In this document: positions 7,500-64,000 of the stretch, one piece after another
Layout of the letters: every line of letters starts with the position of its first letter
Numbering within the stretch: the stretch's first letter is position 1
Origin: Candidatus Methylomirabilota bacterium
GTDB lineage: Bacteria; Methylomirabilota; Methylomirabilia; Methylomirabilales; 2-02-FULL-66-22
DNA length: 64,000 bases
Direction of reading: 5' to 3'
NCBI GenBank assembly: GCA_016209735.1
Contig: JACQVN010000009.1
Span: 113,986-177,985, forward strand
Position numbers and translations under genes: made by a program
The notes under the pieces: generated by a model
What the model was told of the DNA's origin: nothing
Seen by the model: the letters and a program-made list of their open reading frames with translations, nothing else
Database searches by the model: none

Positions 7500-9398
7500 T
7501 CAGGCGATCCTCCGGGACCCCCGGGGGTCGAGGATTTCCCGCATCCACAGCTCCAGCATCATGAGCGCCCACAAGCGGTCGCCGTGGTTGCGGGCACCGC
7601 TGAGGTGTTCCTGCTTCAAGCCATCGACGGTCGCGGCGACCAAGAGGCCTCGTCCGCGCACCCGTCGGGCCGAGAGAAGATCCTCCATGACCTCTCGGAG
7701 GTCCGTCCGCAGCCATTGCCCAAGAGGAATCATGAAGCCTTGTTTCCGGTGGTTGAGCACTTCGGGGGGCAGCAGGGCGGCGAAGGCCTGTTTCAGGAGT
7801 CCCTTCAGCCGAAAGCCGGGCAGCTTGACGGCGGGCGGGATCCTCAGGCTCTCCTCGATGACTCCGTGGTCGCAAAATGGGGCGCGGAGTTCGAGGGAGT
7901 GTGCCATGCTCATCCGGTCTGCCATGGTCAAGAGATCGTCCGGGAGGTAAGTGGCGAGATCGATCCGAAAAGCCCCGTCCACGACCCCATCATGCCCGTG
8001 CGTCGCATAGGCATCTCGCTGTGCCGCCTCGACGTCCGAAATCCAGCGGGCGCGAACCTCCGGCGCGACAAGACGCTCCAGCTCCGCTTCGCGAAAGAAG
8101 CGGGTCCAGCCGATGTACCGATCAGGCATGGACTCTTCTGCCCCCCTGGCGAAGCGGCGGACCCAATCGCCCCAGTTCCGGCTGGCGTCGGTGTCGGAGA
8201 TCAGGCGCGAGCCAATGGAGCTGACCGGGCTCCGGAGCCATCCGGGCGTCCTGGCATACCACTCCGCAAGTCGAACGCCGAGGTAGCGGGGATATCCGGC
8301 GAAGGTTTCGTCTCCGCCGATGCCAGAAAGGGCAACCTTGACGTGCCGTGCCGTGGCTTGTGCGACCACGTAAGTCGGGATGGCCGAAGAATCCGCGAAC
8401 GGTTCGTCGAACTGGCGGACAATGGGGGTCAGGAGGTCGACCGCCTTGGGGGCCAGGATCTCTTCATGGTGATCCGTCTCAAAACGCCGCGCCACCGCGC
8501 GGGCATACGGAAGTTCGTTGAAGGAAGGGGCGGAAGGCCCGAAGCCGATCGAGAAGGTCGCGATGCGCTGGCTGGTGACCTCACGCATGGTGGCAACGAC
8601 TGCGCTGGAGTCGATCCCACCGCTCAGGAAGACTCCCAGCGGGACATCGCTCTCGAGGCGAAGGCGAACGGCCTCCCGCAGTATGTGTCGGATGCGGGCA
8701 GCCGCCTCGGCGGGAGACGGGGCCGGCACGAACTCCCCTTGGGGAAGGCCCCAGTATCGTTCGACGGCCAGGCTCCCCTGTCTGAAAGTGGCCCTGTGCC
8801 CTGGCGGAAGCTTGCAGATGTCAGAGAATATCGACCGATCAGCCGGCGTGTACCCGAAGGCGAGATAGTGATGGAAGGCCTCCCAGTCGATGTTTCCCCC
8901 CGCCTCGGGATGGCAGAGGAGCGCCTTGATCTCCGAGGCGAAGAGGAACAGACCATCCCGCTGCCAGTAAAAGAGGGGTTTCTTTCCCATCCGGTCCCGG
9001 GCGAGGAAAAGGCGCCGCCTCCCGGCATCCCAGATGGCGAAGGCAAACATCCCCCGGAGGGTCTCGACGCAGTGCTCCCCCGCCTCTTCGTACAGATGGA
9101 GGATCGCCTCGGTATCGCTCCGGGTCCGGAACAGATGCCCCCGGCTCTCGAGATCTCCCCGGAGGTCGCGGTGATTGTAGATCTCGCCGTTGAAGACGAT
9201 GTGGAGGGAGCCATCCTCGTTCGTCATGGGTTGGCGACCGCCGGCGAGATCGATGATGGAGAGACGCCGCATCCCCAGTCCAACTTCGGGACCGACCCAT
9301 ACCCCCTCATCGTCCGGTCCGCGGTGCGCGAGAACGCCAACCATCTGCTCCAGCACGGCGCGATCCCTCTCTCCAACGAAACCGGCGATGCCGCACAC
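7500..9398 (-). CDS. asnB: Asparagine synthase-type glutamine amidotransferase
   Basis: 632 aa, full length for the family. MCGIAGFVGERD places the nucleophilic Cys2 at the processed N-terminus; RGPDDEGVW and FNGEIYNHRDLR complete the class II glutaminase site. The C-terminal ATP-pyrophosphatase domain has VPLGVFLSGGIDSSAVVA (PP-loop, about residue 254) and ALSGIGGDETFAGYPRY. It may make asparagine, but AsnB paralogues inside polysaccharide loci are thought to amidate uronic acids or other glycan carboxylates, which the location favours. It is embedded between GT genes on the minus strand. It was considered as a lasso cyclase and rejected. Confidence 0.93.
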   Translation of the reverse strand: MCGIAGFVGERDRAVLEQMVGVLAHRGPDDEGVWVGPEVGLGMRRLSIIDLAGGRQPMTNEDGSLHIVFNGEIYNHRDLRGDLESRGHLFRTRSDTEAILHLYEEAGEHCVETLRGMFAFAIWDAGRRRLFLARDRMGKKPLFYWQRDGLFLFASEIKALLCHPEAGGNIDWEAFHHYLAFGYTPADRSIFSDICKLPPGHRATFRQGSLAVERYWGLPQGEFVPAPSPAEAAARIRHILREAVRLRLESDVPLGVFLSGGIDSSAVVATMREVTSQRIATFSIGFGPSAPSFNELPYARAVARRFETDHHEEILAPKAVDLLTPIVRQFDEPFADSSAIPTYVVAQATARHVKVALSGIGGDETFAGYPRYLGVRLAEWYARTPGWLRSPVSSIGSRLISDTDASRNWGDWVRRFARGAEESMPDRYIGWTRFFREAELERLVAPEVRARWISDVEAAQRDAYATHGHDGVVDGAFRIDLATYLPDDLLTMADRMSMAHSLELRAPFCDHGVIEESLRIPPAVKLPGFRLKGLLKQAFAALLPPEVLNHRKQGFMIPLGQWLRTDLREVMEDLLSARRVRGRGLLVAATVDGLKQEHLSGARNHGDRLWALMMLELWMREILDPRGSRRIA

Positions 9399-12080: not shown

Positions 12081-13190
12081 TCAAGGACACAGGTGGGGAG
12101 CGGGATCACCGTGCACCTCATCGTACAGCTCTTCGATTCTTCGCATGGCGGCGGCGGCATCAAATCGCTTCGCCACATGATCCCTCGCGGCAGCACCCAT
12201 CTCTCGGCGTTTTTTCGGATCCTGGGCCAGCTCGCGGAGTCCCCGCCAAAGCGCATGGGTGTCCCCTGCGGGCACGAACATGCCAGACTCTCCGTCGCGA
12301 AAGGTCTCGGCATTGCCGCCGAGGGGGGTGGCCACGCATGGGATGCCGCTGGCCATCGCTTCCAGGAGCGCGCGCGAGAGGCCCTCGCGGAGGAGCGTCG
12401 GAAGGGCAAAGACGTCCAGGGCGGCATAAAAGGCCGCCAGGGACTCCGAGAATGGCAGGAAGATCACCCGAGCGGGAGCGACGGCCCTGAGGGCCGTTTC
12501 GTCCTTACCCCGGCCGGCGATGAGCAGTCTGGCGTCCGGGGATTCATGTCGCAGCCGCTCAAATGCTGCGAAGAGAACGTCAAGGCCTTTCTCGCGGATC
12601 AACTGCCCGCTATAGCCGATGACGAAGGCACGATCCGCGATGCCGAGTTCTTTTCGCAGTGCGGCCCCCGCTGCCGTTGTCTGATATTCCCCGATATCGA
12701 CGCCGTTGGGAATCACGCACAGCTTGTTTCGGTGCCATCGCGGGAATCGGGAAGCGACGGCGCGGGAAACGCATATGATCCTCTTGCACAATGGGGGGAC
12801 GAGGAAATCCCACGCTCCGCCGGATTCCGAGGTCCTGGCATGAAAGATGACAGGGGATCTTGGATGGGCGGTGAACGCCAGGCCGCTTATCATCGCGGTA
12901 TAGAGCGTGTCGCAGTGAACGATATCGGGCCGCAGCGCGCGGGCCCGCCGGCGAAACGATCCGGCGGCACGTATCGCGCACGCCGAATCGACGGGGGCGT
13001 TCGCGCCGAGGAACCCTACCTCGGCCCCGAGGACCCGTGCGCGGCGTGCCACTTCGCCCTCGGTCGGGCAGAGCACGAGTGGCATGAACCGCTTCCGATC
13101 GAGGTGCCGCAGCAGCAGGAAGAGACTTATCTGCCCGCCGCCCACGATATCCGCGTAGCCACTCACATAGAGAATCCGTATCGGTTGCAT
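12081..13190 (-). CDS. Glycosyltransferase family 4
   Basis: 369 aa, start MQPIRILYVSGYADIVGGGQISLFLLLRHL. PDIVHCDTLYTAMISGLAF and FHARTSESGG in the acceptor domain, then FVIGYSGQLIREKGLDVLFAAF and LLIAGRGKDETALR, with the donor-site run VFALPTLLREGLSRALLEAMASGIPCVAT in the C-terminal domain. A typical GT-B retaining enzyme. It ends 12 nt before the GT9 start and is preceded by another GT4 only 2 nt upstream, so this is an uninterrupted operon. Confidence 0.92.
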   Translation of the reverse strand: MQPIRILYVSGYADIVGGGQISLFLLLRHLDRKRFMPLVLCPTEGEVARRARVLGAEVGFLGANAPVDSACAIRAAGSFRRRARALRPDIVHCDTLYTAMISGLAFTAHPRSPVIFHARTSESGGAWDFLVPPLCKRIICVSRAVASRFPRWHRNKLCVIPNGVDIGEYQTTAAGAALRKELGIADRAFVIGYSGQLIREKGLDVLFAAFERLRHESPDARLLIAGRGKDETALRAVAPARVIFLPFSESLAAFYAALDVFALPTLLREGLSRALLEAMASGIPCVATPLGGNAETFRDGESGMFVPAGDTHALWRGLRELAQDPKKRREMGAAARDHVAKRFDAAAAMRRIEELYDEVHGDPAPHLCP

Positions 13191-14465: not shown

Positions 14466-16043
14466 TCAACGAATTCGATAGATGAGGATCCGGCGCCCCG
14501 CACGGTCTTCCACGCGGTGCACGAGCTCGAGATCGGGAGAGGCCGGCGGCTTCTCGCCGAGCAAACCCGCGAGGTCGGGGCGCGATTGGGGCAAGCGATA
14601 GTTGTCGGCAAGCAGATATCGAACGCCAGCGCGGCGTCCCGCCTGGATCAAGCTCTCCAGGGAGTGCAGGGCAAAGGGAATCGCATGCGATTCTGTGTAA
14701 TAGATGGCTGACCCGTAGGAGCCGATGAAGGGGACCTTCGGTCCCCCCGTCCGCCGTAACCACATCCCCGCGGCCTTCTCGACCGCGGCCGGGTCCTGCC
14801 GGAACCACGGGCGCACGATCCACGGCACGAAACTGATCAGTACCAGGGTGAGCCACAAGAGGCTCCGTCTCGACAGACGGCCCCGCGGCGAGCCGCCCGC
14901 CGCGGGCAGACGCGCCAGCCCGATGCCACCAAGAATGGCGAACACGGGAATCAGCGATACAAAATAGCGCGCGTCCACCAAATAGACAAGGACCCCCGCC
15001 AGGGGCAAGGGAACCACTGCCAGGATCCACTCGGGTGGCCCGGGCGGCCGACGGAAGCGCAACTGCACGATCCCGAGGACGAGGAGAGCGAATCCGCCAC
15101 CCGCCAGCAGCGACGAGATCACATACTTGTCGATGAGATGCAAGTTTATCGCCACGCGTTTCGCCATCGCGCCCGGGTGCGCGAGGGCGTAGGCGAGAAC
15201 ACCGGAAGGGACGTCTTCGCTCCGCAGCTCGGCCAGGCGTCGCTCGTAGAAACTGGCTTGCTGTTCGTCGCCCACGCTCTCGCCGAAGACCAGCGAAACT
15301 CCCCCCTTCCCGCTCCAGTGCCAGTGGCCAGTGTGACTCCGCACCAGCGCCATGTACGGAGAGACGATGGCGATCCAACAGACCGTGACAATCGCCAGGC
15401 GAGCCAGAACCAATCGTCTCGTCCAAAGCGAACCGAAGAGGGCAGGAGCAAGAATCAGCAGCACCCACGCCAGCGCGAGATACGCCATCCCTTCGGGCCT
15501 GGCGAGGGTCGAGAGGCCCCCCAGGATGCCGGTTGCGACGGCCAGCCCCCACGACCCGACCCGGAGGGTGCGAACGAGAACAAAGAGAAAGAGGGTGAGG
15601 CACAGACCAAAGGTGGCCTCCGCCAGCACCTTCGTGCTGGCCTCGATTGCCGACGGCGTCAGCGCGACGAGGAGCCCGGCGGTCCACAGCACCGCCTCGT
15701 CAGTCGTTTCATCGGCGAGCCAAAGTGTCGGCCAAATCCAAAGGCCACCGAGAACCGCGGAAAGCACTCGAGCGGTCCACTCAGGATCGTTCCAGACCCC
15801 CAGGAATGGCGCGAGCAGGAGAGAATACAGCGGCGGGTGCAGGACATTGACCTCCCGCCAGTTCGCGAACAGCGCCGTGGCGTTCTGCAGGTAGGCTATC
15901 CCGTCAGACTCGATTCCCTCGCGTCGTGTCGCAACGAGTAATCGTATGGCGATCGCCAGGGCGCATAGAAGCGCGCCGGGAAGCCACGTTTTCCTCCAGG
16001 TTTCCCGCCACAGGGCGCCTGCCACCATAGCCCCGTTCCCCAT
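14466..16043 (-). CDS. GT-C glycosyltransferase, PMT_2/ArnT-like membrane protein
   Basis: 525 aa, multi-spanning. The N-terminal membrane helix is followed by ATRREGIESDGIAYLQNA, where the aspartate sits in the first external loop as in dolichyl/undecaprenyl-phosphate-mannose family enzymes, and LHPPLYSLLLAPFLG. Around ten hydrophobic helices follow, then a soluble C-terminal tail from about residue 400 (FVPWIVRPWFRQDP). It would move a lipid-linked sugar on the outer face of the inner membrane. About 180 nt separate it from the GT4 gene downstream, and no gene fits there. Confidence 0.85.
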   Translation of the reverse strand: MGNGAMVAGALWRETWRKTWLPGALLCALAIAIRLLVATRREGIESDGIAYLQNATALFANWREVNVLHPPLYSLLLAPFLGVWNDPEWTARVLSAVLGGLWIWPTLWLADETTDEAVLWTAGLLVALTPSAIEASTKVLAEATFGLCLTLFLFVLVRTLRVGSWGLAVATGILGGLSTLARPEGMAYLALAWVLLILAPALFGSLWTRRLVLARLAIVTVCWIAIVSPYMALVRSHTGHWHWSGKGGVSLVFGESVGDEQQASFYERRLAELRSEDVPSGVLAYALAHPGAMAKRVAINLHLIDKYVISSLLAGGGFALLVLGIVQLRFRRPPGPPEWILAVVPLPLAGVLVYLVDARYFVSLIPVFAILGGIGLARLPAAGGSPRGRLSRRSLLWLTLVLISFVPWIVRPWFRQDPAAVEKAAGMWLRRTGGPKVPFIGSYGSAIYYTESHAIPFALHSLESLIQAGRRAGVRYLLADNYRLPQSRPDLAGLLGEKPPASPDLELVHRVEDRAGRRILIYRIR

Positions 16044-50141: not shown

Positions 50142-52637
50142 GTGGCCAAGTCGCTAGTCATCGTCGAATCGCCGGCCAAGGCGAAGACCATCAACAAGTT
50201 CCTGGGGGCGCGCTACGTGGTCAAGGCGTCCATGGGGCACGTTCGCGATCTGCCGACCAAGACACTGGCAGTGGACGTCGAGCGGAATTTCAAGCCCGAG
50301 TACAAGGTGGTGCCGGGACGCGAAAAGGTCCTGACCGAGCTGAAGAAGGCCGCCAAGGCGGCGGAGTCCATCTATCTCGCCGCTGACCCCGACCGGGAGG
50401 GGGAGGCCATCTGCTGGCACCTGGCCCAGGAGTTGAAGGCGGCGAAGAAGCCCGTCCATCGCGTGACCTTCAACGAGATCACCAAGCGGGCGGTGCAAGA
50501 GGCCTTCGAGCATCCCATGCATATCGACCAGCGCAAAGTGGACGCCCAGCAGGCCCGGCGGATCCTGGACCGGCTGGTGGGGTACAAGATCAGCCCGCTG
50601 CTCTGGGAAAAAGTTCGGCGGGGAATCTCCGCCGGCCGCGTCCAGTCGGTGGCGCTCCGGCTGGTGGTAGACCGCGAGCGCGAGGTCCGGGCCTTTGTGC
50701 CCACCGAGTACTGGAGCATCACGGCCCGGTGTGCGCGCCCGGACGGGAGCGGCCCCGAGTTCCCGGCCCGCCTCCTGCGCGTGGCCGGGGAGAAGGTCCA
50801 GATTCCCTCGCAGGCCGCCGCGGAGGCGCTGCTGGCCGAGCTCACGCCGCTCCGCGAGGCCTTTCGGGTCTCCGCGCTGGTCAAGAAGCAGAAGCGGCGA
50901 AATCCCGTGCCGCCCTTCACGACCAGCAAGCTCCAGCAGGAGGCGGCCCGGAAGCTCCGGTTTCCCGCCAGAAAGACCATGCAGGTGGCTCAGCAGCTTT
51001 ACGAAGGGATCGAGCTGGACGGAGGCGAGGCCATGGGCCTCATCACCTACATGCGGACCGACTCCACCCGCGTCTCGCCGGAGGCACAGGGCGAAGGCCG
51101 GGACTATATCGCCCGGCGGTACGGCGCCGAGTTCCTGCCGGAGCGGCCGCCGGTCTACCGGAGCGGCCAGGGGGCCCAGGAGGCGCACGAGGCCATCCGG
51201 CCCACCTCCGTGTTGCGCGAGCCCTCGCAGGTCGCGTCCGGCCTGACGCGGGATCAGCTCGCCCTGTATACCTTGATCTGGAATCGATTCGTGGCCTCCC
51301 AGATGCGCCCGGCCCTCTTCGACGCCACCACGGTGGACATCGCCGCCGGACGGATGCTCTTCCGGGCCACCGGCCAGCACATGACCTTCGCCGGCTTCAT
51401 GCAGGTGTACGTCGAGGGGCACGACGAGCCCGCCGGCGGCAGGGCCGGCGAGCCGCGCGAGGCCGAGGCAGAGGAGGACGACGAGGAGCACGCCCTGCCC
51501 CCGCTGGCGGAAGGAGAGCTGGTGGCCTGCCGCGCCCTGACGCCTCTCCAGCACTTCACCCAGCCGCCGCCCCGCTACACCGAGGCGTCCCTCGTCAAGG
51601 AGCTGGAGGAGCTGGGAATCGGGCGGCCGAGCACCTACGCCGCCATCCTGAGCGTTATCCAGAACCGCGACTACGCGGTCAAGGCGGAGGGGAAGTTCCG
51701 CCCCACGGAGCTGGGGGAGATCGTGACGGATCTCTTGATCGAGGGATTTCCCCGCATCCTGGATCCCGGCTTCACCGCCCAGATGGAGACGAAGCTGGAC
51801 GAGATCGAGGAAGGGACCGCCGACTGGCTAGAGGCCATGCAGACCTTCTATGCGGCCTTCACGCGCTGGCTCGAAAAGGCCCAACAGAAGATGAAGAACG
51901 TGAAGGCCATGGAGGAGCCCACCGACCAGGTCTGCGAGAAGTGCGGCCGCACCATGGTGATCAAGTGGGGCCGGTTCGGGAAGTTCCTGGCCTGCTCCGG
52001 CTACCCGGATTGCAAGAACACCAAGGAGCTGTCGGGCAACGGGAACGGGGAGCCCGCGGCGGGGACGAACGGCCAGGGCACGACCGTGGGGGAGGGGCAA
52101 CCCTGCGAGAACTGCGGGAAGCCCATGGTCTTGAAGCGGGGCCGGTTCGGCCCCTTCCTGGCCTGCTCGGGATACCCGGAGTGCCGGACCGTCGTGCGGG
52201 TTTCCCGGAAGGCCGCGCAGCTTCCGCCGGAGCCCACCAACGAGACCTGCGAGGCGTGCGGGGCGCCCATGGTCATTCGCACGGGCCGCTTCGGCCGGTT
52301 CATCTCCTGCAGCAGCTACCCCAAGTGCAAGACGGTGAAGCCCATTCCCATCGGCGTCAACTGCCCCAAGTGCGGGGCGGCCTTGTCCGAGCGACGAAGC
52401 AAGCGCGGGCGCACCTTCTACGGCTGCACCGCCTATCCGAAGTGCGACTTCACCCTCTGGAACCGGCCGGTCCCGGAAGCCTGCCCGACCTGCCACGCCC
52501 CCTTCCTGCTGGAGAAGCGCCTCAAGGCCGGCCTGACCCTCCAGTGCGCCACCGAGGGCTGCAAGTACAAGCGCCTGGTGGAAGCGCCGGCGCCTACCGG
52601 GGCAATGCCCAGTGAGGCAATGGCTAAGAGCAACTGA
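50142..52637 (+). CDS. topA: DNA topoisomerase I
   Basis: 831 aa, GTG start. SLVIVESPAKAKTINKFLG starts the Toprim domain with ADPDREGEAICWHLAQEL, and GLITYMRTDSTRVSPEA holds the catalytic tyrosine near residue 302. After residue 595 five Cys4 zinc ribbons follow (CEKCGRTMVIKWGRFGKFLAC, CENCGKPMVLKRGRFG, CEACGAPMVIRTGRFG, CPKCGAALSERRSKRG, CPTCHAPFLLEKRL), more than the three usual in E. coli. Relaxes negative supercoils. Confidence 0.97.
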   Translation: MAKSLVIVESPAKAKTINKFLGARYVVKASMGHVRDLPTKTLAVDVERNFKPEYKVVPGREKVLTELKKAAKAAESIYLAADPDREGEAICWHLAQELKAAKKPVHRVTFNEITKRAVQEAFEHPMHIDQRKVDAQQARRILDRLVGYKISPLLWEKVRRGISAGRVQSVALRLVVDREREVRAFVPTEYWSITARCARPDGSGPEFPARLLRVAGEKVQIPSQAAAEALLAELTPLREAFRVSALVKKQKRRNPVPPFTTSKLQQEAARKLRFPARKTMQVAQQLYEGIELDGGEAMGLITYMRTDSTRVSPEAQGEGRDYIARRYGAEFLPERPPVYRSGQGAQEAHEAIRPTSVLREPSQVASGLTRDQLALYTLIWNRFVASQMRPALFDATTVDIAAGRMLFRATGQHMTFAGFMQVYVEGHDEPAGGRAGEPREAEAEEDDEEHALPPLAEGELVACRALTPLQHFTQPPPRYTEASLVKELEELGIGRPSTYAAILSVIQNRDYAVKAEGKFRPTELGEIVTDLLIEGFPRILDPGFTAQMETKLDEIEEGTADWLEAMQTFYAAFTRWLEKAQQKMKNVKAMEEPTDQVCEKCGRTMVIKWGRFGKFLACSGYPDCKNTKELSGNGNGEPAAGTNGQGTTVGEGQPCENCGKPMVLKRGRFGPFLACSGYPECRTVVRVSRKAAQLPPEPTNETCEACGAPMVIRTGRFGRFISCSSYPKCKTVKPIPIGVNCPKCGAALSERRSKRGRTFYGCTAYPKCDFTLWNRPVPEACPTCHAPFLLEKRLKAGLTLQCATEGCKYKRLVEAPAPTGAMPSEAMAKSN

Positions 52638-52639
52638 CC

Positions 52640-53265
52640 AATTTGCGATTTGCGATTTCCGATTTGCGATTCGGACCCGATCCGCCCCCGCGTCCTTCAA
52701 ATCGAAAATCGCAAATCGCAAATCGCAAATGCCCTCCTGCCCCCTGGTTCTTCCCGCCCACCCTGAGCCCGTCGAAGGGTGGCCTCTGGCCTCTGACCAC
52801 TGGCCTCCGCCCTTCCCATTCCGCATTCATCATTCCGCATTCGGTACTGCCCCCTGCCTTCCCGCCTTCGGCGGGATTTCGTCACGCCATGGCGTGACTC
52901 AACCTGCTGCCCCCTGGTTCTGATCCCTGCCCGCTGCCCGCTGCCTCCTGCCCCCTGATCCCCGTCCTTCCCATTCCGCATTCCGTCCCTCGACACGCTC
53001 GGGACGCCCTGAGCTAGTCGAAGGGCGCATTCATCATTCCGCATTCGACCCTGCCCCCTACTCCCCTGGACGGGGCTCATGGCTCATAGCTCATGGCCAA
53101 GACCGGTCCCCCATGAGCCATCAGCCATCAGCCACGAGCGAGTTACCGTCCATGGTCCATCGTCCATCGTCCATGGTTCCGACCTCTGCCCTCGGACCTC
53201 GGACCTCCGACCTCTGGTTCCTGCCATTCCGCATTCATCATTCCGCATTCGGTACTGCCCCCTGC
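52640..53265. repeat. Compound period-7 repeat tract downstream of topA
   Basis: Starts as ATTTGCG ATTTGCG ATTTCCG and its reverse complement TCGCAAA (n=3) around a GC-rich centre (52640-52735). Then CACCCTGAGCCCGTCGAAGGGTG (52757), CATTCCG CATTCAT CATTCCG (52815, 53223), CTGCCCG (n), CTCATGG CTCATAG CTCATGG (53080), AGCCATC (n), TCCATCG TCCATCG TCCATGG (53150), GGACCTC (n) near 53190. No gene; all tracts have a 7-nt period and several are self-complementary. Confidence 0.85.
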
Positions 53266-53271
53266 CCCCGC

Positions 53272-54777
53272 TTAGCTCTCCTCGACGAACACCTCTTCTC
53301 GCTTCTTGCGTATGGCTGGGACGACGATGAGAATCAATAGGGCGGCGGCCATCAGCAACATGGTCAGCGAGATCGGTCGCCGGAAGAACACCGTGAAGTC
53401 GCCGCGGGACAGCACCAGGGCGCGCCGCAGGTTCTCCTCCAGCATCGGGCCGAGGATGAACCCCAGCAGCAGCGGGGCCGGCTCGCAGCCCAACTTTGCG
53501 AAGATGTAACCAAGGATTCCGAAGGCAATGGCGACCCAGACCTCGAACACATTGTTGTTGGCGGTGTAGGAACCGACGGTGCAGATCAGCACGATGGCCG
53601 GGTACAGCAGCCGATAGGGCACCCGGAGCAGCTTGACCCAGATGCCGATCAACGGCAGATTCAGAACCACCAGCATCAGGTTGCCGATCCACATGCTGAC
53701 GATCAGCCCCCAGAAGAGGTCCGGCGGCTTGTTCATGACCTGGGGCCCGGGCTGGATGTTGTGGATCATCAGGGCACCGACCATCAGCGCCATCACGGCG
53801 TTCGAAGGGATGCCCAGCCTCAAGAGCGGGATGAAGGAGGTCTGAGCACCGGCGTTGTTGGCCGATTCCGGGCCGGCCACCCCCTCGATGGCGCCCTTGC
53901 CGAACCGGGACGGGTCCTTGGCGAGCTTCTTCTCCACGGTGTAGGACGCAAAGGCGGACAGGGTCGCACCGCCGCCCGACAGAATCCCGAGCATCGTGCC
54001 CAGGGCGGTCCCCCGCAAGATCGCCGGAAACACCTGCTTGAATTCGGCCCATGTCATCCACAAGCCCGTGACGTTTTCGGTGAATACGTGGCGGCCACTT
54101 TTCTGTTCGAGATTGACAGCGATCTCGGCAAAGGCAAAGAGACCCATCGCCAGCCCGACGAAGCCGATCCCGTCAGTGAGTTCCGGCGCCTCAAAGGAGA
54201 AGCGGGCCATGCCGGATTCCACGTCGGTGCCAACAATCCCCAGCAGCAGGCCGAGGATGATCATCAAGATGGCCTTCAGCACCGAGCCGTGGGCCAGCAC
54301 CACGGCGGAGAGCAGGCCGAGCACCATCAGCGAAAAATACTCCGCGGCGTCGAACTTGAGCGCCAATTCGACCAGTGGCGGGGCAAAGGCGGCGATCACC
54401 ACCGTCGCCACGTATCCGGCAAAGAACGACCCCAGAGCGGAAACGCACAGCGCCGCGCCGGCCCGCCCCTGCCGGGCCATCTGGTGGCCATCGAGGACGG
54501 TGACGACCGACGAGATCTCGCCGGGAATATTGACCAGGATGGCGTTCGTCGAGCCGCCATAGGACGCGCCGTAGTAAATGCCGGCGAGCATGATCAGTGC
54601 CGACACCGGCGGCAGATAATAGGTTATGGGCAGCAGCATGGCGATCGTCGGGACCGGGCCAATGCCGGGGAGGACCCCGATCAGCGTGCCCAGCAGGGTG
54701 CCGACAAATGCATAGAACAAGTTGAGCGGCGTCACCGCCACGCCTAAGCCTAGGGCGAGGTTGCCGAACAAATCCAT
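53272..54777 (-). CDS. tctA: Tripartite tricarboxylate transporter membrane protein TctA
   Basis: About 501 aa from ATG 54775-54777, which overlaps the tctB stop by one base (TGATG). GTLLGTLIGVLPGIGPVPTIAMLLPITY and YGGSTNAILVNIPGEISSVVT are TctA signatures, NNAGAQTSFIPLLRLGIPSNAVMALMVGALMIHNIQPGPQVM another. About a dozen helices. The C-terminal SRGDFTVFFRRPISLT is typical. The large membrane subunit for carboxylate uptake. Confidence 0.95.
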   Translation of the reverse strand: MDLFGNLALGLGVAVTPLNLFYAFVGTLLGTLIGVLPGIGPVPTIAMLLPITYYLPPVSALIMLAGIYYGASYGGSTNAILVNIPGEISSVVTVLDGHQMARQGRAGAALCVSALGSFFAGYVATVVIAAFAPPLVELALKFDAAEYFSLMVLGLLSAVVLAHGSVLKAILMIILGLLLGIVGTDVESGMARFSFEAPELTDGIGFVGLAMGLFAFAEIAVNLEQKSGRHVFTENVTGLWMTWAEFKQVFPAILRGTALGTMLGILSGGGATLSAFASYTVEKKLAKDPSRFGKGAIEGVAGPESANNAGAQTSFIPLLRLGIPSNAVMALMVGALMIHNIQPGPQVMNKPPDLFWGLIVSMWIGNLMLVVLNLPLIGIWVKLLRVPYRLLYPAIVLICTVGSYTANNNVFEVWVAIAFGILGYIFAKLGCEPAPLLLGFILGPMLEENLRRALVLSRGDFTVFFRRPISLTMLLMAAALLILIVVPAIRKKREEVFVEES

Positions 54778-55241
54778 CAGCGCCCTCCCCCGAGGAAGAC
54801 CGGCCACACCGGCAATGGCACCCCCAGACCGTAGATGAACACCGCGACCATGGATGCCGCCTGAATGGCGCCGCTGAGGAGCGCCTCCCTCCACCCGAAC
54901 TCGTCGCTGGCCACGGAAGATACGAAAACCAAGGCCAGGCTGGCGACCACCAGCCCCAGCCACTGGGCCGCCAGACCCCAGACCAGCACGCTCAGTAAGA
55001 CAATACTCAGCGGTCGCCAGTGCCAGCGGGACATCGGCTCGCCCCCGGATCGACAACCAGAGAGGCTGAGGAGGCTGCCCAACCCGAGAAGCAGGATGCC
55101 GAGGATACGGGGAAAATAACCGGGACCCATGCGGGAGGCGGTGCCCAGGGGGTAGGACCGTGCGATCACCAGCGCCGCCAGACCGAACGCCATGAATAAC
55201 AGCCCGGCGGCAAAGTCCTTGGGGTTGCGAATCAGCGGCAT
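54777..55241 (-). CDS. tctB: Tripartite tricarboxylate transporter small subunit TctB
   Basis: 154 aa, four helices. DFAAGLLFMAFGLAALVIARSYPLGTASRMGPGYFPRILGILLLGLG is the usual TctB start (with MGPGYFP). Small membrane partner of TctA. Only five nt separate it from the tctC stop. Confidence 0.92.
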   Translation of the reverse strand: MPLIRNPKDFAAGLLFMAFGLAALVIARSYPLGTASRMGPGYFPRILGILLLGLGSLLSLSGCRSGGEPMSRWHWRPLSIVLLSVLVWGLAAQWLGLVVASLALVFVSSVASDEFGWREALLSGAIQAASMVAVFIYGLGVPLPVWPVFLGGGR

Positions 55242-57114: not shown

Positions 57115-57500
57115 CACTTCCTAACCGCTGCCTCTCCGCACCTCAGACCCCTGACCCTGACCCCTACCCCCCTGCGGCTCTGACGGCTGCCCTCTGCCCT
57201 CTGCCCTCGAACCTCGAACCGGGGACCGGGGGCCAGGGACGGGGGGCCAGGGACCACGGACCCGGAACCGGCTCTCGTCACCCCCGAACCGGAAACCTCG
57301 AACCTTGAACCGGGAACCTTGAACCCCCGACCCCTGCCCTCTGCCCTCGGACCTCGGACCTCGGCCCCCCGACCCCTGCCCTCCGCCTCCTTCCCCCTGG
57401 TTCTTTCCGCTCACCCTGAGCCCGTCGAAGGGTGACCTCTGCCCTCTGACCTCGAAACTGAAACCTGAAACCTCGAACCCCGAACCTCGGACTCGCCTTT
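57115..57500. repeat. Heptamer-rich repeat tract upstream of the second tctC
   Basis: CTCTGCC CTCTGCC CTCGAAC CTCGAAC then GGGACCG and repeated CTCGGAC CTCGGAC CTCGGCC units, with GAGCCCGTCGAAGGGTG at 57418. Period 7. Antisense ORFs across it are not genes. Confidence 0.85.
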
Positions 57501-62851: not shown

Positions 62852-62984
62852 GTAGAATCCTCGTAACCGCTCACAGAGTACGAGTGATTCTACTGGCATC
62901 CGCTGCCGGCGGCAAGCCGAATCCGGGCCACCGGATGGTGCGGTCCCGGACCCCGCATTCGGCGCTGCCCGCTGCCTACTGTCA

Positions 62985-63060
62985 TTTCCGATTTGCGATT
63001 TGCCCACGATCCGCCCCCGCGTCCTTCAAATCGCAAATCGGAAATTGGAAATCGCAAATG
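62985..63060. repeat. TTTGCGAT heptamer palindrome, second copy
   Basis: TTTCCGA TTTGCGA TTTGCCC, then a centre, then TCAAATC GCAAATC GGAAATT. 27 bases of the centre, from CGATCCGCCCC on, are identical to the copy at 52678-52704. Confidence 0.85.
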
Positions 63061-63174
63061 CCCGACATGCCAAACGCTCTCACTCAACTCCATCCCTTCT
63101 TGCTTCTCCGGGATTGTGTTGACATCCGCAGCCGCACCTGTTAAGAGGAACCAGAACCCCAGGAGAGAGGGGAT

Positions 63175-63589: not shown

Positions 63590-64000
63590 CGAATCGGTGA
63601 AATCTGCGGAATCTGCGGAGTAGCGAAGGAGGGTGCCAAAGAGGCGGCAATGGCTGGTGGTGAACGAGGTGTGAGAAAGTATCGAAAGCATCCTACGTCT
63701 CCTCCTACGTGTTCGGTTCCCTCCCGGCTCATGGCTCATGGGCTCTTGCTAGCAGCGATGCGCCATCAGTCATGGGCTTCTTGTGCCCCCCGCTCCCCAG
63801 TCCCTCCGCTCCTCGGCGTTCCCCATCGTCCATCGTCCATGGTCCGTCGTCCGTCGCCCCTGGTGCCGCCCTCTGGCCTCTGACCTCTGGCTCCTCCCAT
63901 TCCCCATTCCGCATTCGTCCCTGCCCGCTGTCCCGCCTCTCGGCGGGATCTCGCTGCGGCTCGACCTGCTGCCCCTGCTCCCTGCCCCCCGACCCCCATC
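63590..64000. repeat. Compound heptamer tract at the right end
   Basis: ATCTGCGG units at 63602, GGCTCAT GGCTCAT GGGCTC near 63727, CCATCGT CCATCGT CCATGGT CCGTCGT CCGTCGC at 63827, CATTCCC CATTCCG CATTCG at 63898, CCTGCCC units to the end. The same families as 52.6-53.3 kb. No gene. Confidence 0.8.

Follow-up and report, generated by a model that had tools for sequence, protein, structure and literature searches.

Period-7 repeat arrays between topA and tctA of a Methylomirabilota bacterium and their likeness to the ends of small insertions

Repeats with a unit of seven nucleotides have been noticed in bacteria of many phyla since about 1990, and we know of no accepted origin for them in over thirty years. 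That they are over-represented in many bacteria is already established. The closest described relatives of the locus considered here are the cyanobacterial STRR sequences, or heptameric SSRs (GGGNATC, TAACTGA), which likewise consist of 7-nt units of many words, are intergenic, and occur in several phyla (PMC4692102, PMC4679880). A polarity of the G-rich strand with respect to genes has been reported for the GGGNATC repeats of Xanthomonas and Nostoc, with G-quadruplexes under discussion (PMC4692102).

The window, namely the whole 64,000-nt stretch of DNA that was analyzed, contains a 634-bp gap between two converging genes, topA and tctA, and a tract of heptamers occupies this gap. Listed below are the features of the gap and of the related tracts in the window.

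50142-52637, + strand: topA, DNA topoisomerase I, left neighbor (TIGR01051, E 5e-259)
52641-52671, + strand: hairpin element 1, G/T-rich 5' arm, ATTTGCG array
52672-52697, no strand: hairpin element 1, non-repetitive interior (loop), common to the copy at 62984-63063
52698-52730, + strand: hairpin element 1, C/A-rich 3' arm, CGCAAAT (CAAATCG) array, an inverted copy of the left arm
52733-52798, + strand: dispersed module with the palindrome CCCTGAGCCCGTCGAAGGG (33 genome copies), 92% identical to 57386-57451
52780-52807, + strand: TGGCCTC array, from the array listing (as are all single arrays below)
52813-52842, + strand: CATTCCG array, first
52861-52875, no strand: CCCGCCTTCGGCGGG hairpin, from folding and module comparison
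52925-52957, + strand: CTGCCCG array
53074 to about 53094-53097, + strand: hairpin element 2, 5' arm, GGCTCAT array
53095-53110, no strand: hairpin element 2, interior GGCCAAGACCGGTCCC, similar in one copy on the same contig
53111-53134, + strand: hairpin element 2, 3' arm, ATGAGCC/ATCAGCC units (AGCCATC array)
53147-53174, + strand: TCCATCG array
53181-53214, + strand: GGACCTC array
53225-53250, + strand: CATTCCG array, second
53255-53269, + strand: CTGCCCC array
53272-55056, - strand: tctA, tripartite tricarboxylate transporter, right neighbor, convergent (PF01970, E 2e-157)
57187-57500, + strand: related tract, approximately 45 heptamers of changing sequence, CC standing in one 7-nt phase in 36
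62984-63059, + strand: second copy of hairpin element 1, from module comparison
63720-64000, + strand: the module series of 53074-53271 again, as a diverged second copy reaching the contig end

The lag-7 self-match of the tract at 52638-53270 is 0.53, whereas 1000 dinucleotide shuffles give 0.289 (z 14, with no shuffle as high), and of the lags from 1 to 21 only 7, 14, and 21 are raised. The original prediction, made from the letters of this DNA, held that several 7-nt words sit side by side at 52640-53265 with a lag-7 signal above that of composition-matched random sequence; both points are borne out, and the arrays that it named were found at their coordinates. With tandem 7-nt units above chance in intergenic DNA, the tract agrees in this respect with the heptameric SSR/STRR kind, and the proposed likeness to the cyanobacterial heptamers is apt. 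The suggestion that it is richer than these is not supported, a comparable mix of words being present within 50 kb of a Nostoc plasmid. The words of the seven units that had been counted are all present, but CTCATGG and AGCCATC belong to a single hairpin, one as each arm, and are not independent families. Several words had been said to meet their reverse complement. Indeed, the TTTGCGA and GGCTCAT/ATGAGCC pairs do so, but these are the only two inverted pairs, and most arrays of the tract are without an inverted partner. The 43 nt surrounding the first CATTCCG array recur exactly at 53224-53266, and a relative of the CCCGCCTTCGGCGGG hairpin also stands after the CATTCCG/CTGCCC modules at the right end of the window.

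Both hairpins display the foldback-like arrangement, in which the inverted arms are themselves tandem arrays of a short repeat, as do many in other phyla. The TTTGCGA pair (52641-52730) has 31-nt arms that are 94% complementary, with an RNA fold of -42.4 kcal/mol (z -7.1). The fold of element 2 has a z of -4.6.

Within this genome the same word was observed in different intergenic regions in 63 exact pairs versus 5.7 expected (maximum of 14 in 200 draws). The words recur in part because whole modules, including their non-repetitive spacer, are dispersed. Tracts resembling that at 52638-53270 lie within the window at 57187-57500, 62984-63059, and 63720-64000. The second copy of element 1 shows 90% identity between 52655-52734 and 62984-63063, and the module order hairpin, TCCATCG, GACCTC, CATTCCG, CTGCCC recurs at 63720-64000. 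The region at 53046-53158 has an 83-85% match approximately 128 kb away, and the hairpin at 53074-53139 on its own has matches on several other contigs. Some paralogous module copies differ in length by exactly 7 nt. A common mechanism for copying 7-nt words, which had been thought necessary, is only partly right: it is not needed for the recurrence within the genome, since composite modules of arms and spacer are dispersed as blocks.

In the tract at 57187-57500 the 7-nt phase is nearly unbroken while the words change, with much substitution and few indels. The strict keeping of a 7-nt frame that it suggested was ruled out, given that paralogous copies show gaps of all sizes. The palindrome CCCTGAGCNNNTCGAAGGG forms a dispersed repeat of its own, positioned at 52761-52779 and 53007-53025 in the window and at 33 places in the genome. 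There are 62 copies in the congener G004 and zero to two in the other congeners; its occurrence in the order is patchy, and no copy was found in the other families sampled from the class. Note that window position 64000, the end of contig C55, falls within a heptamer tract; such tracts probably break assemblies and are probably undercounted in this genome.

A scan of 623 kb of this Methylomirabilota (NC10) genome, the assembly of which is 69% complete, revealed arrays of period 7 at a density of 46.5 per 100 kb between genes versus 5.5 in genes. Intergenic arrays of period 8 amount to 13.2 per 100 kb and those of any further period to 10.1 or less. The excess of period 7 extends over the intergenic DNA of the genome and is carried by many words. 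The period-7 peak is present but lower in the congeners, and it is weak in a 2,752,854-bp single-contig genome of the same order. Arrays stand closer to gene edges than random placement would have them, and they are also common between divergent genes. The word CAAATCGC in 3.7 copies was encountered in named genomes of many phyla, in at least 115 stretches, and in three copies in only 2 of 95 genomes of the NC10 phylum. The vocabulary common to the NC10 and cross-phylum sets comprises 7 shared words versus 5.7 expected, no more than composition predicts, and one vocabulary for all phyla was rejected on this basis. The period is general, and the words are local. Period-8 arrays, a second and rarer class of repeat, are found at 1564-1673 of the window and at loci L075, L083, L084, and L093; in congener G005 such arrays display a fixed core and approximately three free positions (CGAACNNC). 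Two strains of Trichormus variabilis have equal copy numbers at one heptamer array.

The arrangement of arrays was followed in a cross-phylum set of loci picked by the one word CAAATCGC and in a viral-contig set picked by three further words, together with four loci with the first word; genes in unannotated loci were simple ORF calls. Neighboring arrays of the same word are inverted in 31 cases and direct in 9 at the cross-phylum loci; an independent set, assembled by means of other words, has 13 and 4, respectively. Of the 37 pairs that could be scored, 30 have the G-rich arm on the 5' side. The G-rich arm comes first in a ratio of 14:2 for similar words and, more weakly, 23:10 for unrelated neighbors. 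Hairpin 1 of the window follows this rule, and hairpin 2 is neutral with respect to G versus C. For single arrays of other words in the cross-phylum set, the G-rich strand reads away from the closest gene edge and into the intergenic space (52:18), a polarity that is absent from non-array intergenic DNA of that set and not significant in NC10 (48:34) or the viral-contig set (41:28). The inverted arrangement and the polarity occur in several phyla, and the polarity extends to words that are not quadruplex-like, such as ATTTGCG, which weakens G-quadruplex formation as its general reason. Direct repeats of at least 7 nt in the flanks of the cross-phylum hairpins number 3 versus 0.39 expected from shuffled flanks, a weak excess, and the NC10 hairpins show none.

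Among the genomes compared there is no close relative of the NC10 species, and its congeners are too diverged for an empty site to be demonstrated. A natural experiment was therefore sought in the plasmids of one cyanobacterial order, the Nostocales. An array of a Trichormus variabilis plasmid lies within a 107-bp segment with TTAAA at both ends; a Nostoc plasmid that shares 97.5% identity with it in this region lacks the segment. A scan for indels among these plasmids, including a heptamer-rich Nostoc plasmid and its relatives (84-96% identity), gave 21 calls, or approximately 16 events once duplicates were merged. Twelve of these are segments 107-346 bp in length that are bounded by heptamer arrays; the remaining four, which served as controls, contain no heptamer arrays and no lag-7 signal. 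In all 12 segments the lag-7 signal is above shuffles at one or both ends (weakest p 0.03, for A14803). The last 48 nt have more C than G in 12 of 12, and the first 48 nt more G than C in 10 of 12. Nine are flanked by target-site duplications of 4-11 bp: TTAAA, TGAAAATT, GTTAAA, GCACAGTG, TTGT, ATAAA, TTGA, TGATAAC, and CTTGGTCAACC (one mismatch). Heptamer-bounded segments are thus present or absent at plasmid sites that are otherwise alignable, most of them with duplications of variable length. Not all of the indels could be polarized as insertions as opposed to deletions. One intergenic gap is empty in three plasmids, and in two it is occupied by unlike elements whose positions differ slightly, an arrangement that argues for insertion and against deletion. 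Segments C8368 and G6187, at different sites, are 78% alike from end to end, and A9409 and Tv16481 have interiors that are 86% alike and different heptamer words.

Three heptamer-armed segments in the Nostoc plasmids lie inside genes, at 8368-8605 (L395), 15042-15280 (L396), and 12812-12933 (L397), the genes being those for TrbI/VirB10, DUF3854, and TraM. Together with their duplications they lengthen the genes by 243, 243, and 129, all multiples of three, which fits selection for read-through.

The plasmid comparison suggests that heptamer repeats may often be the ends of small mobile pieces of DNA. The best account, to which we give about even odds, is that many arrays are the arms, or terminal inverted repeats, of foldback-like miniature insertions, as the plasmids show, and that the window tract is a pile-up of these. 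Such an element consists of a short interior flanked by two inverted arrays of a single 7-nt word; at the left end the strand that reads inward is rich in G, often in G and T, and the C-rich strand closes the right end. For the window as a whole we infer piled-up, decayed insertions by analogy, on account of the build shared with the plasmid elements. The topA-tctA gap would have been a safe intergenic landing zone for several elements and other dispersed repeats, which may have piled up, been copied as blocks, and decayed such that some arrays lost their partner; the arrays might also gain and lose 7-nt units. As for how the arms might arise, we regard it as quite improbable that they are made at insertion. 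At a staggered break, a telomere-like activity guided by a template would add G-rich heptamers to each 3' end, and filler DNA would be trapped between the ends before these were joined. Joining and gap filling would yield 5'-target duplication-(G-rich)n-filler-(C-rich)n-target duplication-3'. Such a route would account for a polarity that is constant among unrelated words too, for the variable-length duplications, for one word per event, for different words with the same interior, and for the fixed step of 7.

The main alternative is that arrays are made and kept in place, where the sequence can change without harm, by polymerase slippage with a preferred step of approximately 7 nt, the blocks then being spread by ordinary recombination. 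According to PMC4679880, slippage in 7-nt steps was put forward by Mrazek et al. 2007. It would agree with heptamers being the commonest long-unit repeats in many bacteria (PMC4679880), with the rarity of arrays in genes, with diverse words shared across phyla only at the composition level, and with the exact 7-nt length differences noted above. The GGGAATC repeats of Xanthomonas, 83% of which are at conserved positions between two species (PMC4692102), fit old rather than active elements and count against the insertion explanation. The same applies to the many arrays of the window tract that have no partner, to the NC10 hairpins with their lack of an excess of flanking direct repeats, to the weak edge polarity of single arrays in NC10 and the viral-contig set, and to the plasmid events being confined to a single order. 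Slippage does not, however, predict inverted partners and their polarity, clean presence/absence segments with duplications, or nearness to gene edges, and we hold it to be rather unlikely. That the hairpins are functional RNA or DNA structures at gene ends, selected for transcript ending or stability, appears improbable. Element 1 begins 3 nt past the stop codon of topA, its fold is far more stable than those of shuffled sequences, and nearness to gene edges would likewise be in keeping with such a role, but there is no terminator-like T tract, no Rfam family was matched, arrays are common between divergent genes too, and congener G005 lacks such a hairpin downstream of topA. An intrinsic terminator or a known RNA family at the window hairpins was rejected, there being no run of T after the stem and no Rfam match.

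Movement of REP/RAYT-type elements by Y1 transposases is highly improbable. Y1_Tnp genes are present in 7 of 7 genomes of the genus, and the hairpins are dispersed. At the two RAYT-like loci of this genome that were inspected, however, no heptamer hairpins stand alongside, for which reason RAYT mobilization was rejected, and the plasmid segments carry target duplications, which Y1 transposition is not known to leave. The RAYT-like Y1 transposase genes of this genome are located at 84623-84946 of contig C55, 39211-39534 of C61, and 40869-41189 of C60, the first of them just downstream of an apparent phage-type integrase end and a tRNA-like stretch. No RVT_1 genes were found in this genome (69% complete) or in congeners G005 and G001 (93% complete). 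Given their absence from three array-bearing genomes, a cell-encoded reverse transcriptase as the source of the arrays was rejected, and a direct DRT10-like origin is weakened.

What is new here is the recurrence of words within a genome together with dispersed modules, the inverted architecture with the G-rich arm at the 5' side, and the heptamer-bounded plasmid indels. If many arrays are indeed the ends of insertions, this type of repeat would be partly explained and its origin would be open to the comparison of filled and empty sites. Heptamer arrays would then be markers of recent genome change, and a mobilizing or end-extending activity, spread over many phyla, would have to exist.

The eukaryotic foldback transposons (Drosophila FB, Galileo, and Tetris) are alike in their long, internally repetitive inverted repeats and variable interior. 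The heptamer elements, unlike these, are bacterial, approximately 100-350 bp in length, and built of 7-nt units with duplications of variable length. In Nostoc, small dispersed repeats (SDR) are reportedly mobile and embedded in heptameric tandem repeats or minitransposons (Elhai et al. 2008); there the SDR is the mobile part, whereas here the heptamer arrays are the ends of the segment that is present or absent. REP/REPIN sequences with their RAYT are also small, dispersed, intergenic hairpins, but they have a conserved REP sequence and a linked transposase, neither of which was found at the heptamer arrays. The enzyme genes sought for the heptamer elements were RVT_1 and Y1_Tnp only, and no transposase was found. 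The STRR sequences, in the excerpts available of PMC4692102 and PMC4679880, are described as one-word repeats and not as the arms of insertions. The telomerase-like reverse transcriptase DRT10 provides a case in which a bacterial enzyme synthesizes short tandem DNA repeats; in the main system studied the repeats are of 9 nt, as against 7 nt here, and the product was recovered as non-chromosomal DNA (PMC12632851).
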